A DNA stretch of 44,901 nt, taken from assembly GCA_902782665.1 (NCBI GenBank), contig CACZOA010000024.1, positions 1 through 44,901 of the forward strand. The letters run 5' to 3'. The notes below the pieces were generated by a model. That model ran no database searches and was not told where the DNA came from. It worked only from the letters and a program-made list of their open reading frames with translations. Source of the stretch: an uncultured Bacteroidales bacterium. Lineage in GTDB: Bacteria > Bacteroidota > Bacteroidia > Bacteroidales > Paludibacteraceae. The first letter of the stretch is position 1. Each line of letters opens with the position of its first letter. The position numbers were made by a program, and so were the translations under genes. This document shows positions 10,165-32,819 of the stretch, piece after piece.

Positions 10165-13137
10165 ATGAGACTAAAACATTTATTTCCGTTTGCCTTTCTC
10201 GCTGCATTTTCCATGGATGCGTTGGCAGATAAGGTTGTGATGGATTTCGAAGACGGCGAGACTACAGGATCAGGATGGAATATGACAGAGTCTATTGTAG
10301 ACAATCCTGTGAAGTGTGGAAACAATTCATCTAAATGTGAGTTGGTAGAACCAGATGAGGCATGGGGTATGACAGGTGTGTGGATCGAGTACAATCGTGG
10401 CACCGAATTCATAGTCGCTGATATCTTCATGAATAAGGATGGCGATATCACTATGCGCGACAACATGCAGAATACTGATGACACCAACAATAATGTGGTT
10501 GTTTCTATCAAGGGTGGTGTGTGGAACAGAGTCGCTTTCGATACGCGTTCTTTTGAGTCTATTTCCGACAATCAGATGGTCTATTTTGGTAGGTCATCGT
10601 CTCCTTTCTATATCGACAATATCAAAGTGACATCTACAATGCCTACTGAGTATGATTGTACAAAGGAAGAGAAAAAGGCTGATGTGGATTACACTTTCGG
10701 TCGTGTTAAGATTGGCGGTGGCGGATTTGTCGCTGGAATCGTGGCTGAAGGATCAACAATGATCGCACGTACAGACGTGGGTGGAGCATACATCCGTAAC
10801 CATGCTGACTGCTCATGGGAACCAATCACTGATTTCATATCTGAGGATGACAAGGGTCTTTATTCGATTGAGGCTGCTGCTATCGATCCGTCAAATCATA
10901 AAAACATCTATCTTCTTGGTGGTTGCCAGTATTTCTCAAGCACCAAGACTGCTATGATGATAAGTAAAGACGGTGGTAAAAACTTTGATATCATCCCTGT
11001 AACTGATCTTATCCGTGTGCATGGAAATGGTAACGGTCGTAACTGTGGCGAGCGAATTGCCGTCGATCCAAACAACAGTGATATCGTTTATGCGGGTGGA
11101 CGTGCTGGCACTCCTTTGATCATGTCAGTCGACGGTGGTAAAAAATGGAGCAAGGTCGCTTCATTCCCTTCTGAAGCATATGGCACAACGGTGAACTGGC
11201 CTTCTTGGGAGAGCACAAAGGTTGCCACAACTGCTGATGAGAATGGTACAACTTGTGTTGTATTTGACAAGAGTTCTGTAAAGAATGGAAAGACTCAACG
11301 TATTTTCGTCGGTATTTCTCGTACTGGTGCTGATAATATATATGTCAGTGAAGACGCAGGATCTACATGGTCGGCTTTGAAGGGAACGGATAACAGTTTC
11401 ATTCCTTGCCGTATGAAGATGAATAAGAGAGGTGAACTTATCATTTGTTGTGCCGACAAGTGTGTGGGTGGTTCTAAAGGTAAGATGTACAAGTATGATA
11501 TCGCTGGTGATAAAATCACAGACATAACTCCGTCTAACGCCCCTGCACTTGGAGGATTTGACATCGCACCGTCGAACCCAGATAAAATGGTGGTCTCTAC
11601 TAACAATACTTGGATTCCTCAGAAATGGGACGGTGGTTTGAGTGCGAATGGAGATATCATTTGGACTACAATTGATGGTGGTAAGACATGGACTTCTCTA
11701 CAGAATAAGATGACACTTTACAATAGTGGTGTCACTTGGGTGAAAGGATATGCTCTTCACTGGTGTGGATCTATCTGCATTGACCCTACTGATGAGAACA
11801 AAGCTTCTTTCACTTCTGGTAACGGAATCTTCACATGTGATCAGATATGGTGTCCAGAACCAAAATTCTATTTTGATGTGAATGGATTAGAGGAGACGGT
11901 GCCTCTTGATATCGTGTCTATCCCTGGCAGAAACACTCTTTCTGTGATCGGAGATTACACTGGATTCATACACAATGATATCCATGAGTTCCCTGCAATC
12001 CATGATCCTGCTCCTGGCACAACAGGTGGAATCTGCTATTATCCGCAGGATCCGGATGTGATGATGCGTGTGGCTAACACAGGTTTTTATATCACAACAT
12101 CAGGAGAGTCAGGTTGGAAACAGGTGTCGAAGACATCCGCTGAATACAACAATCCATACTGCCCGTCATGTGGTCCGATGGCATCAAACGAGGGTAAGTG
12201 TGCTATCACAAAGGTGGATGGAAAATATCGTTTCTTCGTGATTCCAATTCCAGACCCTGACGGTAATGGATCGGGTAGTGGTATTTTCTATTCCGACGAC
12301 GAGGGTAAGACTTGGACTTCAATTGCTGGTACAGAGAAAGCAATCCGTATCGTGACTGATCCTAAAAATGATGCTTATCTATACGCTTCTGGTATGGGTG
12401 TGATTATGGTAAGTGATGATTACGGTAAGACATTCGAAGATGTCGCAATCCAGAACACATTCGGATGGCAGAGTGCATACACACGTCTATGTGTGGTTCC
12501 TGGTCGTGAGGGCTTGATCTATGCTCCATGTGCAGGCAACGGTATAATGGTCTCAACAGATCATGGCTCAACATTCAAGAAATTGTCTGGTATCGAGAGT
12601 TGTGAGGCTGTTGGTTGTGGAAAGGGAAAGAAAGATGGTGAGTTTGCTCTCTATATCTATGGCTCAGCTGGCGACGGTAATGGATTCTTCCGTTCTCTTG
12701 ATGAAGGAAAGACATGGCAGTTGCTAAGTGATTCAAAACATCAGTTTGGAGGCCCAGGTAATGGTCAGTTCCTAGAGGGTGATCAGAACGTGTTCGGACG
12801 TTTCTATATGAGTTCGATCGGTCTTGGAATCATTTACGGAGAGGAGACAGCAACAGCTGTTCCTCACACATGGGAATGCACTTCAGTGGTGAGTGACAAG
12901 TGTGATGCTTCTGATGCAGACAATGTTGAGGCTGAGAATACAATGGTTGTATATCCAAATCCATCAAACTCTGATTTCACATTCGCTGTAGGTGGAGAAT
13001 ATGAGTTGGTTTCTGTGATAGGTCAGACAATCGCGTCGGGCAACGCTGAGTCAGGTCAGACATTCGGTGCTAACCTTCCTTCGGGCATCTACTTCTTGAA
13101 GATGAATGGCGAGGCTTATAAGGTGGTGAAAAAATGA
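10165..13137 (+). CDS. Secreted GH74-like (xyloglucanase-type) beta-propeller protein with T9SS type A tail
   Basis: 990 residues. Residues 1-21 are a signal peptide ending ALA. Residues ~22-157 form a beta-sandwich-like N-terminal domain (starts VVMDFEDGE), possibly carbohydrate-binding. From ~178 to 900 there are BNR/sialidase-type blades (SxDxGxxW: SKDGGKNF, SVDGGKKW, SEDAGSTW, TIDGGKTW, SDDEGKTW, SLDEGKTW). The motif ARTDVGGAY (202-209) is the hallmark of family GH74; its Asp204 aligns with a catalytic acid of xyloglucan hydrolases. I could not assign the second catalytic Asp. The last ~70 residues (VVYPNPSNSDFTF, LPSGIYFLKM, ending VKK) are a T9SS type A sorting domain, so the protein should be surface-attached or released. 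Likely role: attack on beta-glucan or xyloglucan. A non-catalytic BNR protein remains possible. Confidence 0.82.
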   Translation: MRLKHLFPFAFLAAFSMDALADKVVMDFEDGETTGSGWNMTESIVDNPVKCGNNSSKCELVEPDEAWGMTGVWIEYNRGTEFIVADIFMNKDGDITMRDNMQNTDDTNNNVVVSIKGGVWNRVAFDTRSFESISDNQMVYFGRSSSPFYIDNIKVTSTMPTEYDCTKEEKKADVDYTFGRVKIGGGGFVAGIVAEGSTMIARTDVGGAYIRNHADCSWEPITDFISEDDKGLYSIEAAAIDPSNHKNIYLLGGCQYFSSTKTAMMISKDGGKNFDIIPVTDLIRVHGNGNGRNCGERIAVDPNNSDIVYAGGRAGTPLIMSVDGGKKWSKVASFPSEAYGTTVNWPSWESTKVATTADENGTTCVVFDKSSVKNGKTQRIFVGISRTGADNIYVSEDAGSTWSALKGTDNSFIPCRMKMNKRGELIICCADKCVGGSKGKMYKYDIAGDKITDITPSNAPALGGFDIAPSNPDKMVVSTNNTWIPQKWDGGLSANGDIIWTTIDGGKTWTSLQNKMTLYNSGVTWVKGYALHWCGSICIDPTDENKASFTSGNGIFTCDQIWCPEPKFYFDVNGLEETVPLDIVSIPGRNTLSVIGDYTGFIHNDIHEFPAIHDPAPGTTGGICYYPQDPDVMMRVANTGFYITTSGESGWKQVSKTSAEYNNPYCPSCGPMASNEGKCAITKVDGKYRFFVIPIPDPDGNGSGSGIFYSDDEGKTWTSIAGTEKAIRIVTDPKNDAYLYASGMGVIMVSDDYGKTFEDVAIQNTFGWQSAYTRLCVVPGREGLIYAPCAGNGIMVSTDHGSTFKKLSGIESCEAVGCGKGKKDGEFALYIYGSAGDGNGFFRSLDEGKTWQLLSDSKHQFGGPGNGQFLEGDQNVFGRFYMSSIGLGIIYGEETATAVPHTWECTSVVSDKCDASDADNVEAENTMVVYPNPSNSDFTFAVGGEYELVSVIGQTIASGNAESGQTFGANLPSGIYFLKMNGEAYKVVKK

Positions 13138-13176
13138 AATTTATTTTAACTAACTAGACAATATTATATTTTTAGT

Positions 13177-13210
13177 AAGGAGACGTGAGCAATTGCGTCT
13201 CCTTTTTTTT
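13177..13210 (+). terminator. Terminator of the GH74-like gene
   Basis: Stem AAGGAGACG (13177-13185) with CGTCTCCTT (13196-13204), followed by an uninterrupted run of T. It lies 40 bases after the stop codon. Confidence 0.88.
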
Positions 13211-13365
13211 GCTATGAGACGATAGATAATACAGGTACATTTTTTTTCTTTGTTATATGTCTATGATTGAGCTATGTGTTTGCTAATATGGTATATGTTA
13301 GGCTTTTATTGATTAGTTGCGTAGAACTGATATTTCAAAAGTTTTACAAAAAAATCTTCAAATGT

Positions 13366-13396
13366 TTTGTGATTTTAATAAACTTATCTAATTTTG
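13366..13396 (+). promoter_or_regulatory. Promoter of the trpBAEG operon
   Basis: TTTG at 13366-13369, a 19-base spacer, then TAATTTTG at 13389-13396. This is a full match to the Bacteroidetes sigma-ABfr consensus TTTG-N19-21-TAnnTTTG. It places the transcript start at about 13403, just ahead of the leader peptide ATG. Confidence 0.8.
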
Positions 13397-13418
13397 CATT
13401 TGAAAACCATTGAAATTT

Positions 13419-13517
13419 ATGAATTACCAGATAATACATAGGTATTGGCGATGGTGGCTTTCTTCAGAGAAATTAAGAAGTGAAGCAGTCGCCTATTCAA
13501 AAAGCTTACGCAAATGA
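13419..13517 (+). CDS. trpL: trp operon leader peptide (WRWW)
   Basis: A 32-residue open frame beginning MNYQIIHRYWRWWLSSEK and ending SLRK. Three of residues 10-13 are tryptophan (codons 13446-13448 and 13452-13457). It starts ~16 bases after the predicted transcript start and is followed by hairpins and a terminator ahead of trpB, the classic layout for attenuation by ribosome stalling. Codons 20-24, just after the Trp codons, include AAGTGAAGCAG (13478-13488), which can pair with the 5' arm of the terminator. The stop codon sits in the loop of a small hairpin (13509-13524). No Shine-Dalgarno is visible, normal for the phylum. It is too short for usual gene callers. The symbol is by function, not by sequence match. 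Confidence 0.85.
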   Translation: MNYQIIHRYWRWWLSSEKLRSEAVAYSKSLRK

Positions 13518-13640
13518 TTTTGCGGTTCATTGTCGGATTCTTCAAGGCGCGAATCTGATAATGACTTTTTTGTGTTTATGTATAGAGGTAACTGAATGAT
13601 AGCATAAGGCTGTTTCACTTAATGTGAGACAGCCTTTTTT
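13478..13640 (+). promoter_or_regulatory. trp attenuator: antiterminator arm, two hairpins and intrinsic terminator
   Basis: Elements in order: AAGTGAAGCAG (13478-13488); hairpin CGCAAA/TTTGCG (13509-13524); hairpin 13533-13558 (TCGGATTC with GAATCTGA, one G-T pair); terminator stem AAGGCTGTTTCAC (13606-13618) with GTGAGACAGCCTT (13624-13636) followed by TTTT. The first element can form 11 base pairs (one G-U) with CTGTTTCACTT (13610-13620), which removes the terminator's 5' arm. A ribosome stalled on the Trp codons would leave this element free and so favour read-through into trpB; a ribosome that reaches the leader stop would cover or refold it and favour termination. The pairings are visible in the sequence; the mechanism is inferred. 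Confidence 0.8.
13606..13640 (+). terminator. Leader (attenuator) terminator upstream of trpB
   Basis: 13-bp stem with one G-T pair, 5-base loop TTAAT, then T6. It ends 32 bases before the trpB start codon, so it must be bypassed for trpB to be expressed. Confidence 0.88.
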
Positions 13641-13672
13641 AATGTTCGAAAAAATAAAAAAGATTTACATAT

Positions 13673-14863
13673 ATGAAAAATTACGAAGTAAGCAAAGATG
13701 GTTACTACGGAGAATTCGGAGGAAGCTATATTCCAGAGATTCTTCACAAGGTGGTTTATGACCTTCAGGAGCAATATGAGGCGATCATGAACAGCAAGGA
13801 TTTCAAGGAAGAGTTTCATGCTCTTCTAAAAGATTATGTTGGTCGTCCTTCTCCGCTTTACTATGCAAGCCGTTTGAGCGAAAAATACGGTTGCAAGATC
13901 TATCTTAAACGTGAGGATTTGAATCACACCGGAGCTCATAAAATCAACAACTCTCTTGGCCAGATCCTTCTTGCTAAGAAAATGGGAAAGACGCGAATTA
14001 TTTGTGAGACGGGAGCCGGTCAGCATGGTGTGGCTACTGCAACAGCTTGTGCCCTTATGAATCTTCCATGCGTCGTGTATATGGGGGCTACTGATGTTGA
14101 GCGTCAGAAACCTAATGTGGAGAGAATGAAGATGTTGGGTGCGACTGTGGTGCCTGTACAGAGTGGTAACAAGACTCTAAAGGATGCCTGCAACGAGGCT
14201 ATCCGTGACTGGTGTTGCAATCCACGTGACACTTTCTACATCATCGGTAGTACGATGGGTCCTCACCCATATCCTGAGATGGTGGCAAGAATGCAGAGTG
14301 TTATCAGTGAAGAGATTAAGTGGCAGATCAAGGAGAAAGAGGGTAGGGATTATCCAGACTATCTGATGGCTTGCATCGGCGGCGGATCAAATGCTGCGGG
14401 TACTATCTATCATTATAAAGGAGACGAGAGAGTAAACATCGTTCTTGCTGAGGCTGGCGGTCTTGGTGTAGAGACTGGTGAGACTGCAGCGTCTTTGAAT
14501 ATCGGTACTGTTGGAATCCTTCATGGTTCTAAAATGTATGTGATGCAGACTGAGGATGGACAGATCATTGAGCCATATTCAATCTCTGCCGGACTCGATT
14601 ACCCTGGTGTCGGACCTATGCATTGCCAAATGTTCAAGGATGGCAGAAGCAAGGTTCTTCCAATCACAGACCAGGAGGCTCTTGATGCTGCGTTCGAACT
14701 TACTAAACTTGAAGGTATCATCCCTGCTCTTGAGAGTGCTCACGCTTTGGCTCTTCTTCCAAGAATGAAGGATAAGTTCAAGAAAGATGATGTCGTTGTT
14801 TTGACAGTCTCTGGACGTGGCGACAAGGATATGCAGACTTATTTAAAGCATATTAAGAATTAA
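13673..14863 (+). CDS. trpB: Tryptophan synthase beta chain
   Basis: 396 residues, the normal length. It joins indole with serine to make tryptophan, in an alpha2-beta2 complex with TrpA in the cytoplasm. The PLP lysine lies in HTGAHKINN (about residues 83-91), the catalytic Glu in ETGAGQHG, and the phosphate-binding loop is GGGSNAAG. The N-terminus [10 protein letters not shown] is typical of TrpB1. First gene of the operon after the attenuator. A 120-base gap separates it from trpA, unusually wide for this operon, but I see no clear promoter or terminator in it. Confidence 0.97.
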
Positions 14864-14983
14864 TAGTTAAGTGTTAAGAATTGATCGGTTGTCTAATAAA
14901 TGAGGATTGCAAAGGCATAAAGTTATTTTATTTGCTTTTGAATCGCTTGTGAATTAGGTGATTAGATATAAAAATAAATAAAT

Positions 14984-15757
14984 ATGACTAGGATTTCACG
15001 TCTTTTCAAAGAAAAAGGCAAAGATATACTTTCGGTCTACTTTTCATCTGGTTATCCCACAGTAGACTCGGCTCCACGAATCATCAAGGCATTGTCTGAT
15101 GCTGGTGTGGACATGATTGAGATTGGAATTCCATTCTCAGATCCGTTGGCTGACGGTCCTGTTATTCAGCGTAGTAACTCTATCGCTTTAAAGAATGGCA
15201 TTTCGCAGAAACTGCTTTTTGAGCAGATCAAGGATATCCGTAAGGTGACAGACATTCCGTTGATTCTTATGGGTTATATCAATTGCGCTATGCAGTTTGG
15301 CTTTGATAATTTCTGCAAGAAGGCAAAAGAGATCGGTATCGACGGAATTATCCTTCCAGACCTTCCTCTTGATGAATATAATGCGGAGTATCGTCCGATT
15401 GTTGAGAAATATGGTCTTGATTTCATCCATTTGATCACTCCAGAGACAAGTGAGGAGAGAGTGCGTAAGATCGATGAGGCAAGTTCAGGTTTCGTATATA
15501 TGGTTTCGTCTGCCAGCACAACAGGTGCACAGAGCAGTTTCGAGCAGAGCAAGCAGGATTATTTCAAGCGTATCAAGGCTATGAATTTGAAGAATCCTAC
15601 TTTGGTTGGATTCGGAGTTTCAAACCATGAGACATTCCGTGCCGCTGCCGACAATTCCTGCGGTGCTATCGTAGGTAGCCAATTTATCAAGGAACTTGAT
15701 GCAAACCCTACAATTGAGGATGCGGTAAGTTCACTAATCAAGAAAATTAAAGGTTGA
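14984..15757 (+). CDS. trpA: Tryptophan synthase alpha chain
   Basis: 257 residues. It cleaves indole-3-glycerol phosphate to indole and glyceraldehyde 3-phosphate. Both catalytic acids are in recognisable motifs: Glu in MIEIGIPFSDPLADGPVIQ and Asp in IILPDLPLDEY. SSASTTGAQ and GFGVSN match the phosphate-binding region. It is followed after 4 bases by trpE. Its place directly after trpB differs from the Bacteroides order as I remember it, where trpA is last. Confidence 0.97.
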   Translation: MTRISRLFKEKGKDILSVYFSSGYPTVDSAPRIIKALSDAGVDMIEIGIPFSDPLADGPVIQRSNSIALKNGISQKLLFEQIKDIRKVTDIPLILMGYINCAMQFGFDNFCKKAKEIGIDGIILPDLPLDEYNAEYRPIVEKYGLDFIHLITPETSEERVRKIDEASSGFVYMVSSASTTGAQSSFEQSKQDYFKRIKAMNLKNPTLVGFGVSNHETFRAAADNSCGAIVGSQFIKELDANPTIEDAVSSLIKKIKG

Positions 15758-15761
15758 GACT

Positions 15762-17156
15762 ATGTATAAGTTCAAAACAAATGTCGTGACTCTTTTGGGA
15801 GATATGCACACTCCCGTCGAGACATATCTTCGTGTCCGCGACCTATATTCACAAAGTGCATTGATGGAAAGTTCTGATTACCATGGCGGTGAGAACAATC
15901 GTTCATTCATCGGATTGGAGCCTATTGCAAGCGTGTCTATCAGCCATGGAAAATCATATATGAGATTCCCAGATGGAAGCAGACGTGAGCATGTTGTAGA
16001 CCATTCTTATCGTTCTGATCATGCCATCAATGATTTTTTGAAAGAGATTTCTGTAGACGGTGAATGTTCCAACTTCTGTGGATTATATGGATATACTTCA
16101 TTCAACGCTGTCCGCTATTTTGAGGATATCAAGGTTAAGGATGAGGTTAATCCGTTGGCTGACGCTCCAGATATGTTGTATATATTGTATCGTTACATCA
16201 TCGTCTTCAACGATTTCAATAATGAGATGATGATTGTGGAGATGGTTCAGGATGGAGAGAAAAGTGGAATTGAGAGAGTTCGCACAGCGATCCGTGGAGG
16301 TAAGATCAACAATTATGAGTTCCATGCGATCGGTGAGACTTCAAGTCCGTTGACAGACGAGGAGCATAAGGCAAATATCCGCAAGGGTATCGCTCACTGT
16401 ATGCGAGGTGATGTCTTCCAGATTGTGTTGTCGAGACGTTTCATCCAGAAATATGAGGGAGACGATTTCAAGTTGTATCGTGCGTTGAGAAGCATCAACC
16501 CGTCGCCATACCTATTCTATTTTGATTTCGGAGGTTTCAGAATCTTCGGATCAAGTCCTGAGACTCACTGCCGTATCGATGGTGATCAGGCATATATCGA
16601 TCCGATCGCTGGCACAACAAAGCGTACTGGCGACGCAGCACAGGATGCCAAGAATGCCCAGTATCTTCACGATGATCCAAAGGAGAACGCTGAGCACGTG
16701 ATGCTTGTGGATCTTGCCCGTAACGATTTGTCACGCAATTGTCACGACGTGTATGTGGAGAAATACAAGGAGATGCAGTATTACAGCCACGTCATCCACT
16801 TGGTGAGCCGTGTCCGTGGTACACTAGACAAGGATGCTGATCCGATCAAGGCCTTCATCGACACTTTCCCTGCCGGAACACTTTCGGGTGCACCAAAGGT
16901 AAGAGCTATGCAGTTGATTTCTGAGTATGAACCGCACAACCGTGGTGCTTATGGTGGATGTATTGGATTTATCGGCTTGAACAAGTCGTTGAACCAGGCG
17001 ATCACAATCCGTACATTTGTGAGCCGTGGCGGTGAATTATGGTTCCAAGCTGGTGGTGGAATTGTTGCCAAGAGCAACGAGGAGTATGAGTTGCAGGAGG
17101 TGAACAATAAGTTGGGCGCATTGCGTCGTGCCATCACACTTGCTGAGGAAATTTAA
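15762..17156 (+). CDS. trpE: Anthranilate synthase component I
   Basis: 464 residues. With TrpG it converts chorismate and glutamine to anthranilate, the first step of the pathway. The N-terminal regulatory segment has the tryptophan-binding motif as LMESSDY (usual form LLES), so feedback inhibition is likely. The chorismate-binding half holds GDVFQIVLSRRF, GSSPETH, PIAGTTKR, PAGTLSGAPKVRAM and GGCIGFIG, all standard for TrpE rather than PabB. It starts 4 bases after trpA and ends 23 bases before trpG, so the pair are translated together. Confidence 0.96.
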   Translation: MYKFKTNVVTLLGDMHTPVETYLRVRDLYSQSALMESSDYHGGENNRSFIGLEPIASVSISHGKSYMRFPDGSRREHVVDHSYRSDHAINDFLKEISVDGECSNFCGLYGYTSFNAVRYFEDIKVKDEVNPLADAPDMLYILYRYIIVFNDFNNEMMIVEMVQDGEKSGIERVRTAIRGGKINNYEFHAIGETSSPLTDEEHKANIRKGIAHCMRGDVFQIVLSRRFIQKYEGDDFKLYRALRSINPSPYLFYFDFGGFRIFGSSPETHCRIDGDQAYIDPIAGTTKRTGDAAQDAKNAQYLHDDPKENAEHVMLVDLARNDLSRNCHDVYVEKYKEMQYYSHVIHLVSRVRGTLDKDADPIKAFIDTFPAGTLSGAPKVRAMQLISEYEPHNRGAYGGCIGFIGLNKSLNQAITIRTFVSRGGELWFQAGGGIVAKSNEEYELQEVNNKLGALRRAITLAEEI

Positions 17157-17179: not shown

Positions 17180-17743
17180 ATGAAAATAGTAATTATAGAC
17201 AACTACGATTCATTCACATACAACCTCTCGCACTTGGTCAAAGCATTGGGTGCAGACGTTACAGTGTATAGAAACGATCAGTTCAAATTGTCTGATTTGC
17301 AGCAGTTTGATAAAATAATTTTAAGTCCAGGTCCAGGTATCCCTACAGAAGCCGGACTGCTTATGGATGTGATTGCCGAGTACAAGGGTAAAAAGCCAAT
17401 TCTTGGAGTATGTCTTGGACATCAGGCGATCGGAGAAAGTTTTGGAGGCACATTGACGAATCTGTCAGATGTGTTCCATGGAGTACAGACAGATATCGAC
17501 ATCACTGTAGATGATTATGTGTTTGCCGGTTTGAACAGACGAATCCCAGTTGGAAGATACCATTCATGGGTAGTTGACGCTAAAGGATTCCCAGCAGATT
17601 TGGAAATCACAGCTGTGTCTGGAGAAGGACAGGTGATGGCGTTACGTCACAAGACATTTGATATCAGAGGCATTCAGTTCCATCCGGAATCAGTGCTTAC
17701 ACCAGATGGTAAGCAGATGATAAAGAACTGGTTGGAACACTAA
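17180..17743 (+). CDS. trpG: Anthranilate synthase component II (glutamine amidotransferase)
   Basis: 187 residues, a class I glutamine amidotransferase that feeds ammonia to TrpE. Motifs: NYDSFTYNL at the N-terminus, the oxyanion/PGPG segment LSPGPGIP, nucleophile Cys in GVCLGHQAIGE, and His/Glu in IQFHPES. All three catalytic residues are present. It is the last gene of the first trp operon; a strong terminator follows 23 bases after the stop. Many organisms fuse it to trpE or trpD; here it stands alone. A PabA role in folate synthesis as well is possible, as in other bacteria with one such subunit. Confidence 0.95.
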   Translation: MKIVIIDNYDSFTYNLSHLVKALGADVTVYRNDQFKLSDLQQFDKIILSPGPGIPTEAGLLMDVIAEYKGKKPILGVCLGHQAIGESFGGTLTNLSDVFHGVQTDIDITVDDYVFAGLNRRIPVGRYHSWVVDAKGFPADLEITAVSGEGQVMALRHKTFDIRGIQFHPESVLTPDGKQMIKNWLEH

Positions 17744-17836: not shown

Positions 17837-18256
17837 TTAAATGAACTTATTTTTATTGTCGCTAGTTAATCCACTAATGAATTCTTTGAGCTCGCGAATA
17901 GCACATTGCAGTGGAACGAGATCCTCGTCAACCACTTGCCAAATGATATCTTCATCAATATCAAAATATCCATGAGCAATCTGGTCTCTAAGGCCTTTTA
18001 CTTGTTTCCAAGGTATATTGGGTTTTAGTACAAACAATTCTCCATTTGTCAGTTTGTCTATTCTTTTGCATCCTTCTCCAATAGCCTCCAACATCATACT
18101 TGTGGCAGCTAAATTACGTGAGCCATCAACAGATGATAAATAGTCTTCTGCACAACATATTGTTTGATTCCAAACCAGAATATCTGTTATGGCGGAATCA
18201 ATTTGATTGAGTAACCCTATTACCAATTCCTTTACATTCGAAGATATCGATTCCAT
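17837..18256 (-). CDS. hepT: HepT-like HEPN toxin (type VII toxin-antitoxin module)
   Basis: 139 residues, all-helical. It carries RDQIAHGY, an exact RX4HXY motif, the active site of HepT-family HEPN RNases. In characterised MntA/HepT pairs the toxin is silenced by AMP added by the MntA nucleotidyltransferase to the Tyr of this motif; Tyr is present. The start ATG at 18256 lies inside the end of the upstream mntA-like gene (59-base overlap in another frame), so the two are translationally coupled. A slightly later GTG is also possible. It sits directly after the trpG terminator, facing it. Family is clear; activity is inferred. Confidence 0.9.
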   Translation of the reverse strand: MESISSNVKELVIGLLNQIDSAITDILVWNQTICCAEDYLSSVDGSRNLAATSMMLEAIGEGCKRIDKLTNGELFVLKPNIPWKQVKGLRDQIAHGYFDIDEDIIWQVVDEDLVPLQCAIRELKEFISGLTSDNKNKFI

Positions 18257-18530
18257 CTTTTTGAATCTCCTTTAACAATAATTCATTCAGTCGTTTATGA
18301 TTCCTGACAACATCAACTTTTAAGCCTATGATGTCTTCTAGATATTGCTTGACTGCAATTACCAAAAATAATTTGGCAGGCATGGTAACGAAGACATCTA
18401 TGTCGCTTTCTTCTGTTTGTTGGTTTCTTGCAAAGGATCCAAAAAGCACAAGCTTTTCCACTCCAAATTGATTCTGGAGTTCCTCTTTGTTTTTTTCTAA
18501 AACAGATATGACTTCATTTCTTGTTAGCAT
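18198..18530 (-). CDS. mntA: MntA-like minimal nucleotidyltransferase antitoxin
   Basis: 110 residues. The core is LFGSFARNQQ followed by TEESDIDVFV, an intact GSX10DXD motif that binds nucleotide and metal. In known type VII modules this enzyme AMPylates and neutralises HepT. It is the first gene of the pair; hepT overlaps its 3' end. A putative promoter reads upstream on the minus strand: TATGTTTG (18547-18554) with ATTG 20 bases further up. The family is certain from the motif; antitoxin function is by analogy. Confidence 0.9.
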   Translation of the reverse strand: MLTRNEVISVLEKNKEELQNQFGVEKLVLFGSFARNQQTEESDIDVFVTMPAKLFLVIAVKQYLEDIIGLKVDVVRNHKRLNELLLKEIQKDGIDIFECKGIGNRVTQSN

Positions 18531-28133: not shown

Positions 28134-28165
28134 TTTCATTAATAGACCAACATTGATTATTTTTG
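28134..28165 (+). promoter_or_regulatory. Putative promoter of the trpDC...F cluster
   Basis: TTTC (28134-28137), a 20-base spacer and TATTTTTG (28158-28165), a full -7 box with a one-off -33 box. The transcript would start near 28171, leaving a ~30-base leader with no Trp codons before the trpD ATG. This supports 28202 rather than the upstream TTG as the trpD start. Confidence 0.55.
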
Positions 28166-28201
28166 GCAAATTTTGGGACAGTCACATTCGACAAAAACGA
28201 T

Positions 28202-29197
28202 ATGAAAGAGATATTAAGTAAACTTTACACCCAATATACATTGACTCAGGAGGAGGCAAAAAATGTGATGTTGGGTATCGCTGAGGGCCGTTATTGCAAC
28301 GAGCAGATTGCAGCGTGTCTGGCTATAATGCAGACAAGAGGAATCACCGTAGACGAGTTGCTCGGTGTTCGTCAGGGTATGTTGGAAACTGGAGTTCCTG
28401 TTGATTTGGGTGGTGTAAGAGTGGTTGATATCGTAGGTACTGGTGGTGATGGCAAAAACACATTCAACATCTCTACTTGTGCTTGTTTCGTTTTGGCGGG
28501 TGCAGGTTTCAAGGTTGCAAAGCATGGTAACTATGCCGCGACATCTGTGTCGGGCGCAAGTAATGTGCTTGAAGGTCATGGTGTGAAATTCACTAATGAC
28601 AGTGCTGATCTACGTCGCAGTTTGGATGGATCAAACTTCTGCTACATGCACGCTCCTTTGTTTGCGAAGGGAATGAAGAACGTTGTGCCTGTAAGAAAAG
28701 CTCTTCAGGTGCCAACTCTTTTCAACCTTCTTGGTCCGATGATCAACCCTTGCCGTCCACAGTGTCAGTGCTTGGGTACTGCTAATCTGGAGCAGATGAG
28801 ATTGTATGCCAATGTCTTCCAGAAGATGAAGATGGATTATGCGATCGTGACAAGTGAGGACGGATATGATGAGATCTCTTTGACATCTGATTTCAAGATC
28901 ACTGCCGCTGGTTTGGAGAAGGTTTACTCTCCAGCAGATTTCGGATTGAAGACAATCAAGCCAGAGGAGATATATGGTGGATCTACAAAAGAGGAGGCAA
29001 AGAAGATTTTTGATGATGTGTTGACAAACAATGCGACAGAAAGTCAGAAGAACGTTGTGCTTATCAACGCTGCTGCTGCTATGCGTGTCTACGACTCATC
29101 TCTTTCTATGGAAGAGTGTCTTGCTTTGGCAAAAGAGAGCGTTGAGAGTGGAAAAGCAAAGAAAGCATTGGAGAATTACATTAGATTAAACTCGTAA
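28202..29197 (+). CDS. trpD: Anthranilate phosphoribosyltransferase
   Basis: 331 residues from ATG 28202; the frame extends upstream to a TTG at 28163, but that lies inside the predicted promoter. It transfers phosphoribose to anthranilate, the second pathway step. Motifs: DIVGTGGDGKNTFNIST (PRPP binding), KHGNYAATSVSGASNVLE, NLLGPMINPC. Free-standing, not fused to trpG. It opens the second trp cluster; trpC follows after 44 bases. No Trp-rich leader peptide is found upstream. Confidence 0.96.
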   Translation: MKEILSKLYTQYTLTQEEAKNVMLGIAEGRYCNEQIAACLAIMQTRGITVDELLGVRQGMLETGVPVDLGGVRVVDIVGTGGDGKNTFNISTCACFVLAGAGFKVAKHGNYAATSVSGASNVLEGHGVKFTNDSADLRRSLDGSNFCYMHAPLFAKGMKNVVPVRKALQVPTLFNLLGPMINPCRPQCQCLGTANLEQMRLYANVFQKMKMDYAIVTSEDGYDEISLTSDFKITAAGLEKVYSPADFGLKTIKPEEIYGGSTKEEAKKIFDDVLTNNATESQKNVVLINAAAAMRVYDSSLSMEECLALAKESVESGKAKKALENYIRLNS

Positions 29198-29241: not shown

Positions 29242-30021
29242 ATGTATCTAGACAAAATTATAGCGCGTAAGGAGGAAGAGGTTGCTGAGTTGAAGCGTAC
29301 GATCAGAATGAGTGACTTCATGGAGTCGGAAATCTATACTCGTGTATGTTACTCATTGCGCAGAAGCTTGTTGGCTTCATCTACGGGAATTATTTCGGAG
29401 TTCAAGAGAAAAAGCCCGTCGAAAGGATTTATCAATGAGAATGCCAAGGTAGACGAGGTTGTCCCATTCTACGAGAAGGCTGGAGCGGCAGGCATCTCCG
29501 TCTTGGCTGACACTGATTTCTTCGCAGGCGCTCCAAAAGATATACGTATCGCTCGTGAACTTGTGGAGATTCCGATTTTGTTCAAGGAGTTTGTGATCGA
29601 TGAGATCCAACTTCACTTGGCAAAGAGTTGTGGTGCTGATGTGGTGTTGCTTATCGCTGCTTGTCTCACACCTGAGCGTGTGGCTGAATTGGCTGAGGAG
29701 GCTAAGCGTCTTGGTCTTGAGGTGCTTTTGGAACTTCATTCCGCTGACGAACTTGGCCATATCAATAAGAATGTTGATATCGTAGGTATCAATAATCGTA
29801 ATTTGAAGACTTTTGAGGTTGATTTGCAGGCATCTATCGACTTGATGTCGCAGCTTCCTAATGATATGGTGCGTATCTCTGAGAGTGGAATCTCAAGTCC
29901 CGACACCATAAAGATGCTTCGTGAGAAGGGATTCCAGGGATTCTTGATCGGAGAAAATTTCATGAAGACTCAGAATCCGGGAGCCGCTTTGAAAGAATTC
30001 ATTGATGAGTTGAAAAAATAA
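29242..30021 (+). CDS. trpC: Indole-3-glycerol phosphate synthase
   Basis: 259 residues. It closes the indole ring from carboxyphenylaminodeoxyribulose 5-phosphate. Motifs: IISEFKRKSPSKG with the catalytic Lys, ISVLADTDFF, FKEFVIDEIQL, LLELHS, GINNRNLKTF, ISESGISS, FLIGENFM. Not fused to trpF, which lies four genes downstream. The next gene starts 10 bases after the stop codon. Confidence 0.96.
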   Translation: MYLDKIIARKEEEVAELKRTIRMSDFMESEIYTRVCYSLRRSLLASSTGIISEFKRKSPSKGFINENAKVDEVVPFYEKAGAAGISVLADTDFFAGAPKDIRIARELVEIPILFKEFVIDEIQLHLAKSCGADVVLLIAACLTPERVAELAEEAKRLGLEVLLELHSADELGHINKNVDIVGINNRNLKTFEVDLQASIDLMSQLPNDMVRISESGISSPDTIKMLREKGFQGFLIGENFMKTQNPGAALKEFIDELKK

Positions 30022-32195: not shown

Positions 32196-32819
32196 ATGAT
32201 AGTCAAGGTATGCGGAATGCGAGACCCTCGTCAGATGCAGGCACTTGAGGATATGGGTGTTGATTTGATGGGGATGATCTTTTTCCCGAAGAGTCCAAGA
32301 TATGTGGAGACGGAAGGATTTTGTCCTTGTAGTCTGCCACAGAAAATAGCCAAAGTGGGAGTGTTTGTTAAGGCGGATATCGACACTGTGGCGTCTTGTG
32401 TGAAGAAATATAATCTTTCGTTTGTCCAGCTGCATGGCGGTGAAGATGTCGATTATGCGCGTCAGCTGATAGAGAAGACGGGAGTCAAGATAATTAAAGT
32501 GGCGAGTGTGTCAGGTGTAGACGACGTGAGGAATATCCCGACAGAGTGGGAGAGTGTCGCCGACTACATGCTTTTCGACTATAAATGTGTAGGCTACGGA
32601 GGTAGCGGACAGCAGTTCGACTGGGCTGTGTTGGATGAATACACATTGAATATACCATTCCTGTTGAGCGGTGGCGTCGGAGCCGATGATGCTGAGGCAG
32701 TGAAAAACATACGTCATCCCAAGTTTGCAGGAGTGGATGTGAACAGTAAGTTTGAAATTTCACCTGCGAATAAAGATATTGAGAAGGTAAAAACATTTTT
32801 AAGCGTAATAAGAGAATAA
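32196..32819 (+). CDS. trpF: Phosphoribosylanthranilate isomerase
   Basis: 207 residues from ATG 32196, chosen because it starts one base after porT's stop and begins with the expected IVKVCGMRDP (catalytic Cys). Other motifs: GMIFFPKSPRYV, FVQLHGGED, LFDYK with the catalytic Asp, FLLSGGV and GVDVNSKFE. It rearranges phosphoribosylanthranilate to the ribulose form used by TrpC. It is separated from trpC by three non-tryptophan genes. dedA begins 1 base after its stop. Confidence 0.95.
   Translation: MIVKVCGMRDPRQMQALEDMGVDLMGMIFFPKSPRYVETEGFCPCSLPQKIAKVGVFVKADIDTVASCVKKYNLSFVQLHGGEDVDYARQLIEKTGVKIIKVASVSGVDDVRNIPTEWESVADYMLFDYKCVGYGGSGQQFDWAVLDEYTLNIPFLLSGGVGADDAEAVKNIRHPKFAGVDVNSKFEISPANKDIEKVKTFLSVIRE

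Follow-up and report, generated by a model that had tools for sequence, protein, structure and literature searches.

The trpBAEG operon of an uncultured gut-type Bacteroidales bacterium of the family Paludibacteraceae is very probably governed by a ribosome-mediated, Trp-sensing transcription attenuator, as judged from its sequence and from comparison with relatives. The DNA analyzed, hereafter called the window, comprises the 44,901 nucleotides of contig CACZOA010000024.1 (assembly GCA_902782665.1) and carries in front of trpB a leader peptide gene whose RNA contains four segments with alternative pairings. Segment 2 is the partner of both segment 1 (15 bp) and the terminator 5' arm (13 bp), and since the same segment is used by the 1:2 hairpin and by the antiterminator, we classify the device as a ribosome-stalling attenuator of the 1-2-3-4 type whose 2-3 spacer is long. 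A sequence-only reading of this DNA had proposed Trp attenuation in which one antiterminator arm lies within the leader gene, and this proposal is well supported by the anatomy, its conservation, and the relatives compared here.

Organization of the operon and its leader region

The region 13366-13672 is laid out as promoter, leader ORF, and terminator, followed by trpB, trpA, trpE, and trpG (Table 1). The 32-residue leader peptide with a Trp-Arg-Trp-Trp motif, recognized in the sequence-only reading, was borne out; its translation is MNYQIIHRYWRWWLSSEKLRSEAVAYSKSLRK. A promoter before the leader, also noted in that reading, was found as well, and its TTTG and TAATTTTG elements identify it by sequence as Bacteroidetes-type, the consensus of which is given as TTTG/TAnnTTTG in the available text of PMC7366714. 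A sigma-70 pattern scan of 13100-15100 gave no match at the promoter site (13366-13396). Transcription would start at about 13403. The terminator before trpB was recovered independently in a scan of 13100-15100, which also located a terminator-like site at 13177-13204 belonging to the gene upstream of the leader, so that the leader probably begins a separate transcript. The large protein encoded at 10165-13137, ahead of this site, has a C-terminal secretion sorting domain in addition to BNR repeats.

Table 1. Positions of the leader, its RNA segments, and the genes of the trp operon in the window
Feature	Position	Strand	Basis or remark
Promoter	-33 element TTTG 13366-13369; -7 element TAATTTTG 13389-13396; gap 19 nt	+	read from sequence
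Leader peptide gene trpL, 32 codons	13419..13517, stop TGA 13515-13517	+	ORF read; kept in genus
Trp-Arg-Trp-Trp codons TGG CGA TGG TGG	13446..13457	+	read from sequence
Segment 1	13447..13465	+	15 bp with 13477-13493; contains Trp codons
Segment 2	13477..13493 (antiterminator strand 13478-13490)	+	pairs with segment 3
Hairpin h1, 6 bp, stop codon in loop	13509..13524	+	P 0.95-0.97 without ribosome
Hairpin h2, 14 bp, in 2-3 spacer	13527..13564	+	-16.7 kcal/mol; kept in genus
Segment 3	13606..13620 (terminator 5' arm 13606-13618 and first two loop bases)	+	folding, conservation
Segment 4	13624..13640 (terminator 3' arm 13624-13636 and T run 13635-13640)	+	scan, conservation
Terminator, 13 bp	13606-13636, T run 13635-13640	+	found independently in scan of 13100-15100
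trpB, first structural gene	13673..14863	+	PF00291
trpA	14984-15757	+	PF00290
trpE	15762-17156	+	PF04715/PF00425
trpG	17180-17743	+	PF00117

The first structural gene is taken by us to be trpB from its operon context. The trpD, trpC, and trpF genes (28163-29197, 29242-30021, and 32196-32819; the start of trpD is uncertain) lie on the same strand more than 10 kb downstream of trpG, from which unrelated genes separate them. A pattern search of the entire window for a second Trp leader (ATG start, 8-60 codons, three Trp in five; two-Trp leaders escape this pattern), directed above all to the region before trpD, found none near trpD, and the other four matches lay inside or overlapped longer genes. 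By the pattern used, therefore, attenuation appears limited to trpBAEG. Directly after trpG, a toxin-antitoxin-like pair of HepT-like and nucleotidyltransferase (MNT) genes is present on the reverse strand (17837-18530; PF01934, PF18765).

Alternative pairings of the leader RNA

The 2:3 helix joins 13478-13490 to 13608-13620 by 13 bp, including two G-U pairs, at -19.8 kcal/mol. An 11-bp pairing of 13478-13488 with 13610-13620 had been claimed in the sequence-only reading; those pairs, with one G-U among them, are right, and the length was understated. When the leader ORF was dinucleotide-shuffled or synonymously recoded with the terminator held fixed, only 4 of 5000 shuffles and 8 of 5000 recodings, each set against the terminator 5' arm and loop, matched the 2:3 pairing, which is therefore not explained by the peptide sequence or the base composition.

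Segment 1, overlooked in the sequence-only reading, pairs with 13477-13493, as also seen in the minimum-energy fold of 13403-13645 (z = -5.55; 0 of 200 shuffles as low). The contrast with the E. coli 1-2-3-4 design drawn there was consequently overstated, a 1:2 hairpin being present, although the long spacer and the location of segment 2 inside the ORF do set the window apart. Taken alone, the 1:2 hairpin exceeds chance only mildly (matched by 119 of 2000 dinucleotide shuffles and 327 of 2000 synonymous recodings), and its support comes from its position and conservation.

Segment 2 begins 20 nt after the last Trp codon, and the leader stop codon begins 22 nt beyond the 1:2 hairpin and lies 155 nt before trpB. 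The 2-3 spacer, 117 nt in the window, holds hairpins h1 and h2; the pairing had been described as jumping two smaller hairpins, and two are indeed there, but h2 with its 14 bp is not small. GGCG of h2 could additionally pair with CGCC at 13490-13493. A repeat origin of the leader was ruled out, as it occurs at a single place in the genome.

Folding and proposed mechanism

The RNA was folded at successive transcript ends with the ribosome absent or imposed at the stop codon or on the Trp codons. At transcript ends 13500-13612, the 1:2 hairpin reached P 0.55-0.67 without a ribosome or with the ribosome at the stop codon, and P 0 with the ribosome on the Trp codons. The 2:3 helix prevailed at ends 13620-13626 in every ribosome state (P 0.96-0.98; at end 13622 without ribosome, -60.5 kcal/mol versus -54.0 for 1:2) and fell to P 0.02 or less in every state at end 13634, while the terminator dominated at ends 13638 and 13645, again in every state (P 0.94-0.97). 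At full length with a stalled ribosome, 3:4 had -58.1 kcal/mol versus -51.1 for 2:3. In equilibrium folding the imposed ribosome thus alters the 1:2 hairpin and leaves the 2:3/3:4 outcome unaltered, and since this outcome is the same in all ribosome states, the proposed switch would have to be kinetic.

By analogy with the known E. coli mechanism, from which we infer stalling, kinetics, and the Trp response, a ribosome short of Trp would stall at the Trp codons (13446-13457) and cover segment 1, leaving segment 2 free; segment 2 would then capture nascent segment 3, no terminator would form, and transcription would read through into trpB. When Trp is plentiful, the ribosome would reach the stop codon, segment 1 would pair with segment 2, and segment 3 would be free for segment 4, ending transcription near 13640. 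Such a switch would need a formed 1:2 hairpin to persist until segment 4 is made and a formed 2:3 helix to resist displacement; because 2:3 covers two terminator-loop bases, segment 4 would have no loop-side foothold.

Sequence conservation in the closest relatives

The genus comparison comprised 14 rows including the window, corresponding to 7 distinct sequences. By DNA similarity, the leader is present in seven of the nine genus genomes, the window's included; the two genomes in which it was not found also had no trpB match at a strict cut-off (E 1e-205). The closest named records, labeled Bacteroidales, Paludibacteraceae, or Candidatus Scybalocola, carry trpB 97-100% identical to that of the window.

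The anatomy described above and its conservation are evident from these sequences. The Trp-Arg-Trp-Trp codons (0/12 bases variable), segment 1 (0/15), segment 2 (0/17), and segment 3 (0/15) are invariant across the 7 distinct sequences, so that both the WRWW motif and the pairing, whose conservation in close relatives was at stake in the sequence-only reading, are the same in 7 of 7. In segment 4, 3 of 13 sites vary, every exchange preserving a pair, and in the 1:2 loop 6 of 11 sites vary. In the model, segments 1-3 each have two partners and segment 4 has one. Taken together, the paired segments vary at 3 of 60 sites versus 46 of 270 overall (P 0.002). Pair covariation, examined on 6 of the 7 distinct sequences, was not found for 1:2 and 2:3 within the genus because those pairs never vary; h1 shows one compensatory change, C-G to U-A, in L006 (1 of 6 rows). 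The AAGGCGC of the h2 loop is likewise invariant in all 7 distinct sequences.

Leaders of other relatives and their different predicted antiterminator

Relatives were collected as the best 80 trpB loci together with genome samples, an unbalanced sample. After L001, L082, and L095 (the window itself) and L089-L094 (short matches) had been left out, 112 trpB loci were counted; loci L121-L137 are outside all counts. With a permissive pattern, a Trp-rich ORF was found upstream of trpB in 106 of these 112 loci, the other six being L009, L015, L077 (only 106 nt upstream), L099, L105, and L120; the ORF of L008 is probably spurious. Omitting 14 leaders without a terminator by the scan left 92; these comprise 77 distinct combinations of leader segment and terminator (5 from the genus and 72 others). 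The totals of 106 and 92 include near-identical rows and the 14 genus rows.

A six-base element of the form [CTG]G[TC][AG]AG occurs in 82 of the 106 leaders, 12-48 nt from the start of the first Trp codon (near-identical rows included). Of these 82 leaders, 49 have it 22 nt past the last Trp codon and 78 have it 19-23 nt past that codon; in 58 of the 106 leaders, the TRA within the element serves as the stop codon of the leader (44 TAA, 14 TGA). Most leaders outside the genus have a best pairing of another kind than the window's. For 55 of the 72 distinct non-genus leaders, the best contiguous helix joins this GUCGURAG-like element to the terminator loop and mostly the 3' arm, with 6-10 bp that begin 22-30 nt downstream of the first base of the first Trp codon; in the others it is centered on the loop (11/72) or on the 5' arm (2/72), or it lies in the 3' arm without touching the loop (4/72). 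All 5 distinct genus pairs of leader and terminator, in contrast, have their best contiguous helix, of 13-16 bp, with the 5' arm.

Each helix in the 55 relatives is weak by itself, with 0 to 23% of 60 shuffles doing as well. Leaders nevertheless pair better with their own than with permuted terminators, with a mean of 19.6 versus 16.4 for the 77 distinct rows and 19.0 versus 16.8 for the 72 non-genus rows (0 of 2000 permutations in either case), values that ignore relatedness and, because related sequences share history, are no count of independent events. Covariation between leader element and terminator loop is striking by numbers alone, the base pairs in the 44 of 92 rows with both patterns being A-T 26, G-C 15, G-T 3, and A-C 0; on the tree, however, the leader base changed 3 times and the loop base 2 times, too few for a sign test. 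Duplex energies with internal loops allowed were of weak significance for individual relatives: the duplex with loop and 3' arm reached p <= 0.05 in 11 of 92 rows, and that with the 5' arm did so in 25, made up of all 14 genus rows and 11 of the 78 others, so that some leaders outside the genus pair with the 5' arm as well. The count of contiguous helices and the permutation test are clearer than these duplex energies. In L011, L013, L014, and L016, the best helix is centered on the terminator loop, possibly a third or intermediate register.

These comparisons bear on two other readings of the window. An attenuator that uses the loop/3'-arm antiterminator of the relatives, the 13-bp 2:3 helix being secondary, would agree with the prevalence of that pairing outside the genus, the sister lineage L007 (GTCGTGA with TCACGAC, 7 bp) and L098 (8 bp) included. 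We regard it as improbable, since every distinct genus pair has the long 5'-arm helix and the corresponding duplex in the window reaches only -10.2 kcal/mol, compared with -19.8 for the 5' arm, with shuffles as good (p 0.39). It is equally hard to credit that leader and terminator are not Trp-responsive at all, the terminator only lowering basal expression or the peptide acting on trpB translation. The terminator does win in all ribosome states at full length in equilibrium folding, as this reading would have it; against it stand the Trp-codon clusters before trpB in 106 of 112 loci and the fit of leaders to their own terminators, and the 155 nt between stop codon and trpB make translational coupling unlikely. 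A Trp-sensing attenuator working through the 2:3 helix is the reading we retain.

In several other lineages (L044, L047, L098, the L023/L100 group, and L072/L103), leaders extend past the element, so that a stop codon there is not indispensable. The common stop is passed by a frame change or by stop loss in L044, L047, L072, L098, and L100, with the RNA element kept; since it is kept while the peptide ends differ, the constraint appears to act on the RNA and not on the peptide end. Eight residues beyond the last Trp, where the peptides of many relatives terminate in K-S-stop, that of the window reads R-S; GAA occupies the position of the relatives' stop codon, and the ORF is 11 codons longer. 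Segment 2 starts at the same place as the common element. In relatives, the spacer between element and terminator ranges from 27 to 61 nt with 45.5 nt as the median (n 70), and the corresponding spacer of the window, about 115 nt from segment 2 to the terminator, is longer because of hairpins h1 and h2.

Comparison with known attenuators

The trpL gene of E. coli is 14 codons long, with segment 2 beginning just after its stop codon and a short 2-3 spacer. The E. coli trp attenuator (trpL; RF00513) resembles that of the window in its segments 1-2-3-4, with Trp codons in segment 1, a 2:3 antiterminator, and segment 3 as the terminator 5' arm; it differs from the window, in which segment 2 lies inside a 32-codon gene and the 2-3 spacer of 117 nt contains hairpins. 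As in attenuators of the trpL type, the window combines a short leader ORF with clustered product codons (WRWW, in a 32-codon ORF before trpB), an intrinsic terminator (13606-13640) between leader and first structural gene, an antiterminator (13478-13490/13608-13620) that excludes the terminator and is invariant in the genus, and a 1:2 hairpin containing the Trp codons that competes with the antiterminator and is weakly beyond chance and invariant in the genus.

Rfam already contains a relative from which the window's attenuator diverges, the Bacteroid-trp RNA (RF01692), named in Table 1 of Weinberg et al. (2010; PMC2864571). The window's attenuator shares with RF01692 the phylum, the position before Bacteroidetes trp genes (here trpB), the Trp-rich leader ORF, and a long hairpin whose 5' strand carries the Trp codons, and the end of the RF01692 model resembles the first strand of a terminator, as read from its alignment to L027. 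In contrast to the RF01692 group, the window is without the usual stop codon, its leader is 11 codons longer, its spacer has two extra hairpins, and its pairing is with the 5' arm. The window was unmatched at the RF01692 gathering score (49 bits), and the family was also absent among its hits at E up to 10. Across 40 loci, the model matched none of 8 genus loci and 13 of 32 others, the cut-off being reached in 11 of 20 loci of one set and in 2 of 20 of another.

Control of the operon by another RNA device (a T-box, a TRAP-type device, or a riboswitch) is, in our estimate, highly improbable. The Rfam scan of the window gave no family at its cut-off, RF00513 Trp_leader and T-box RF00230 included, and in 13300-13800 none of the 18 matches with E up to 10 was a T-box, a riboswitch, or RF00513. 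A Tetrahymena snoRNA and isrO, which ranked best below the threshold, were taken as chance matches.

Discussion

The principle of attenuation is textbook knowledge, and very likely the window's operon is switched by leader stalling, as its sequence suggests, with an RNA wiring that differs from that of most relatives. Of interest to the specialist are two computed observations: the polarity of the antiterminator is reversed compared with most relatives, and a stop codon is embedded in the common element. We found no prior description of either in the open-licence papers searched. For Trp attenuation in this major gut phylum, the available text of that literature yielded only a predicted motif and no experiment or mechanism; our search did not extend to subscription work, to which the comparative analysis by Lopatovskaya et al. 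(cited in PMC4833913) belongs.

At somewhat less than an even chance, judged from the sequences compared, the common Bacteroidales antiterminator would be the GUCGURAG-like element with the leader's own stop codon, binding the terminator loop and 3' arm and masked by the finishing ribosome, and the window's genus would have been rewired, its stop lost, its leader extended by 11 codons, masking left to the 1:2 hairpin, and the 5' arm captured as in E. coli. The window's form may have originated by stop loss and ORF extension. If this is true, two opposite antiterminator polarities exist within one homologous attenuator family. The compared leaders supply a concrete, testable wiring for a group part of which is missed by the Rfam model, and they suggest that attenuators can switch the terminator strand that is captured while the sensing part, with its Trp codons and element spacing, stays.
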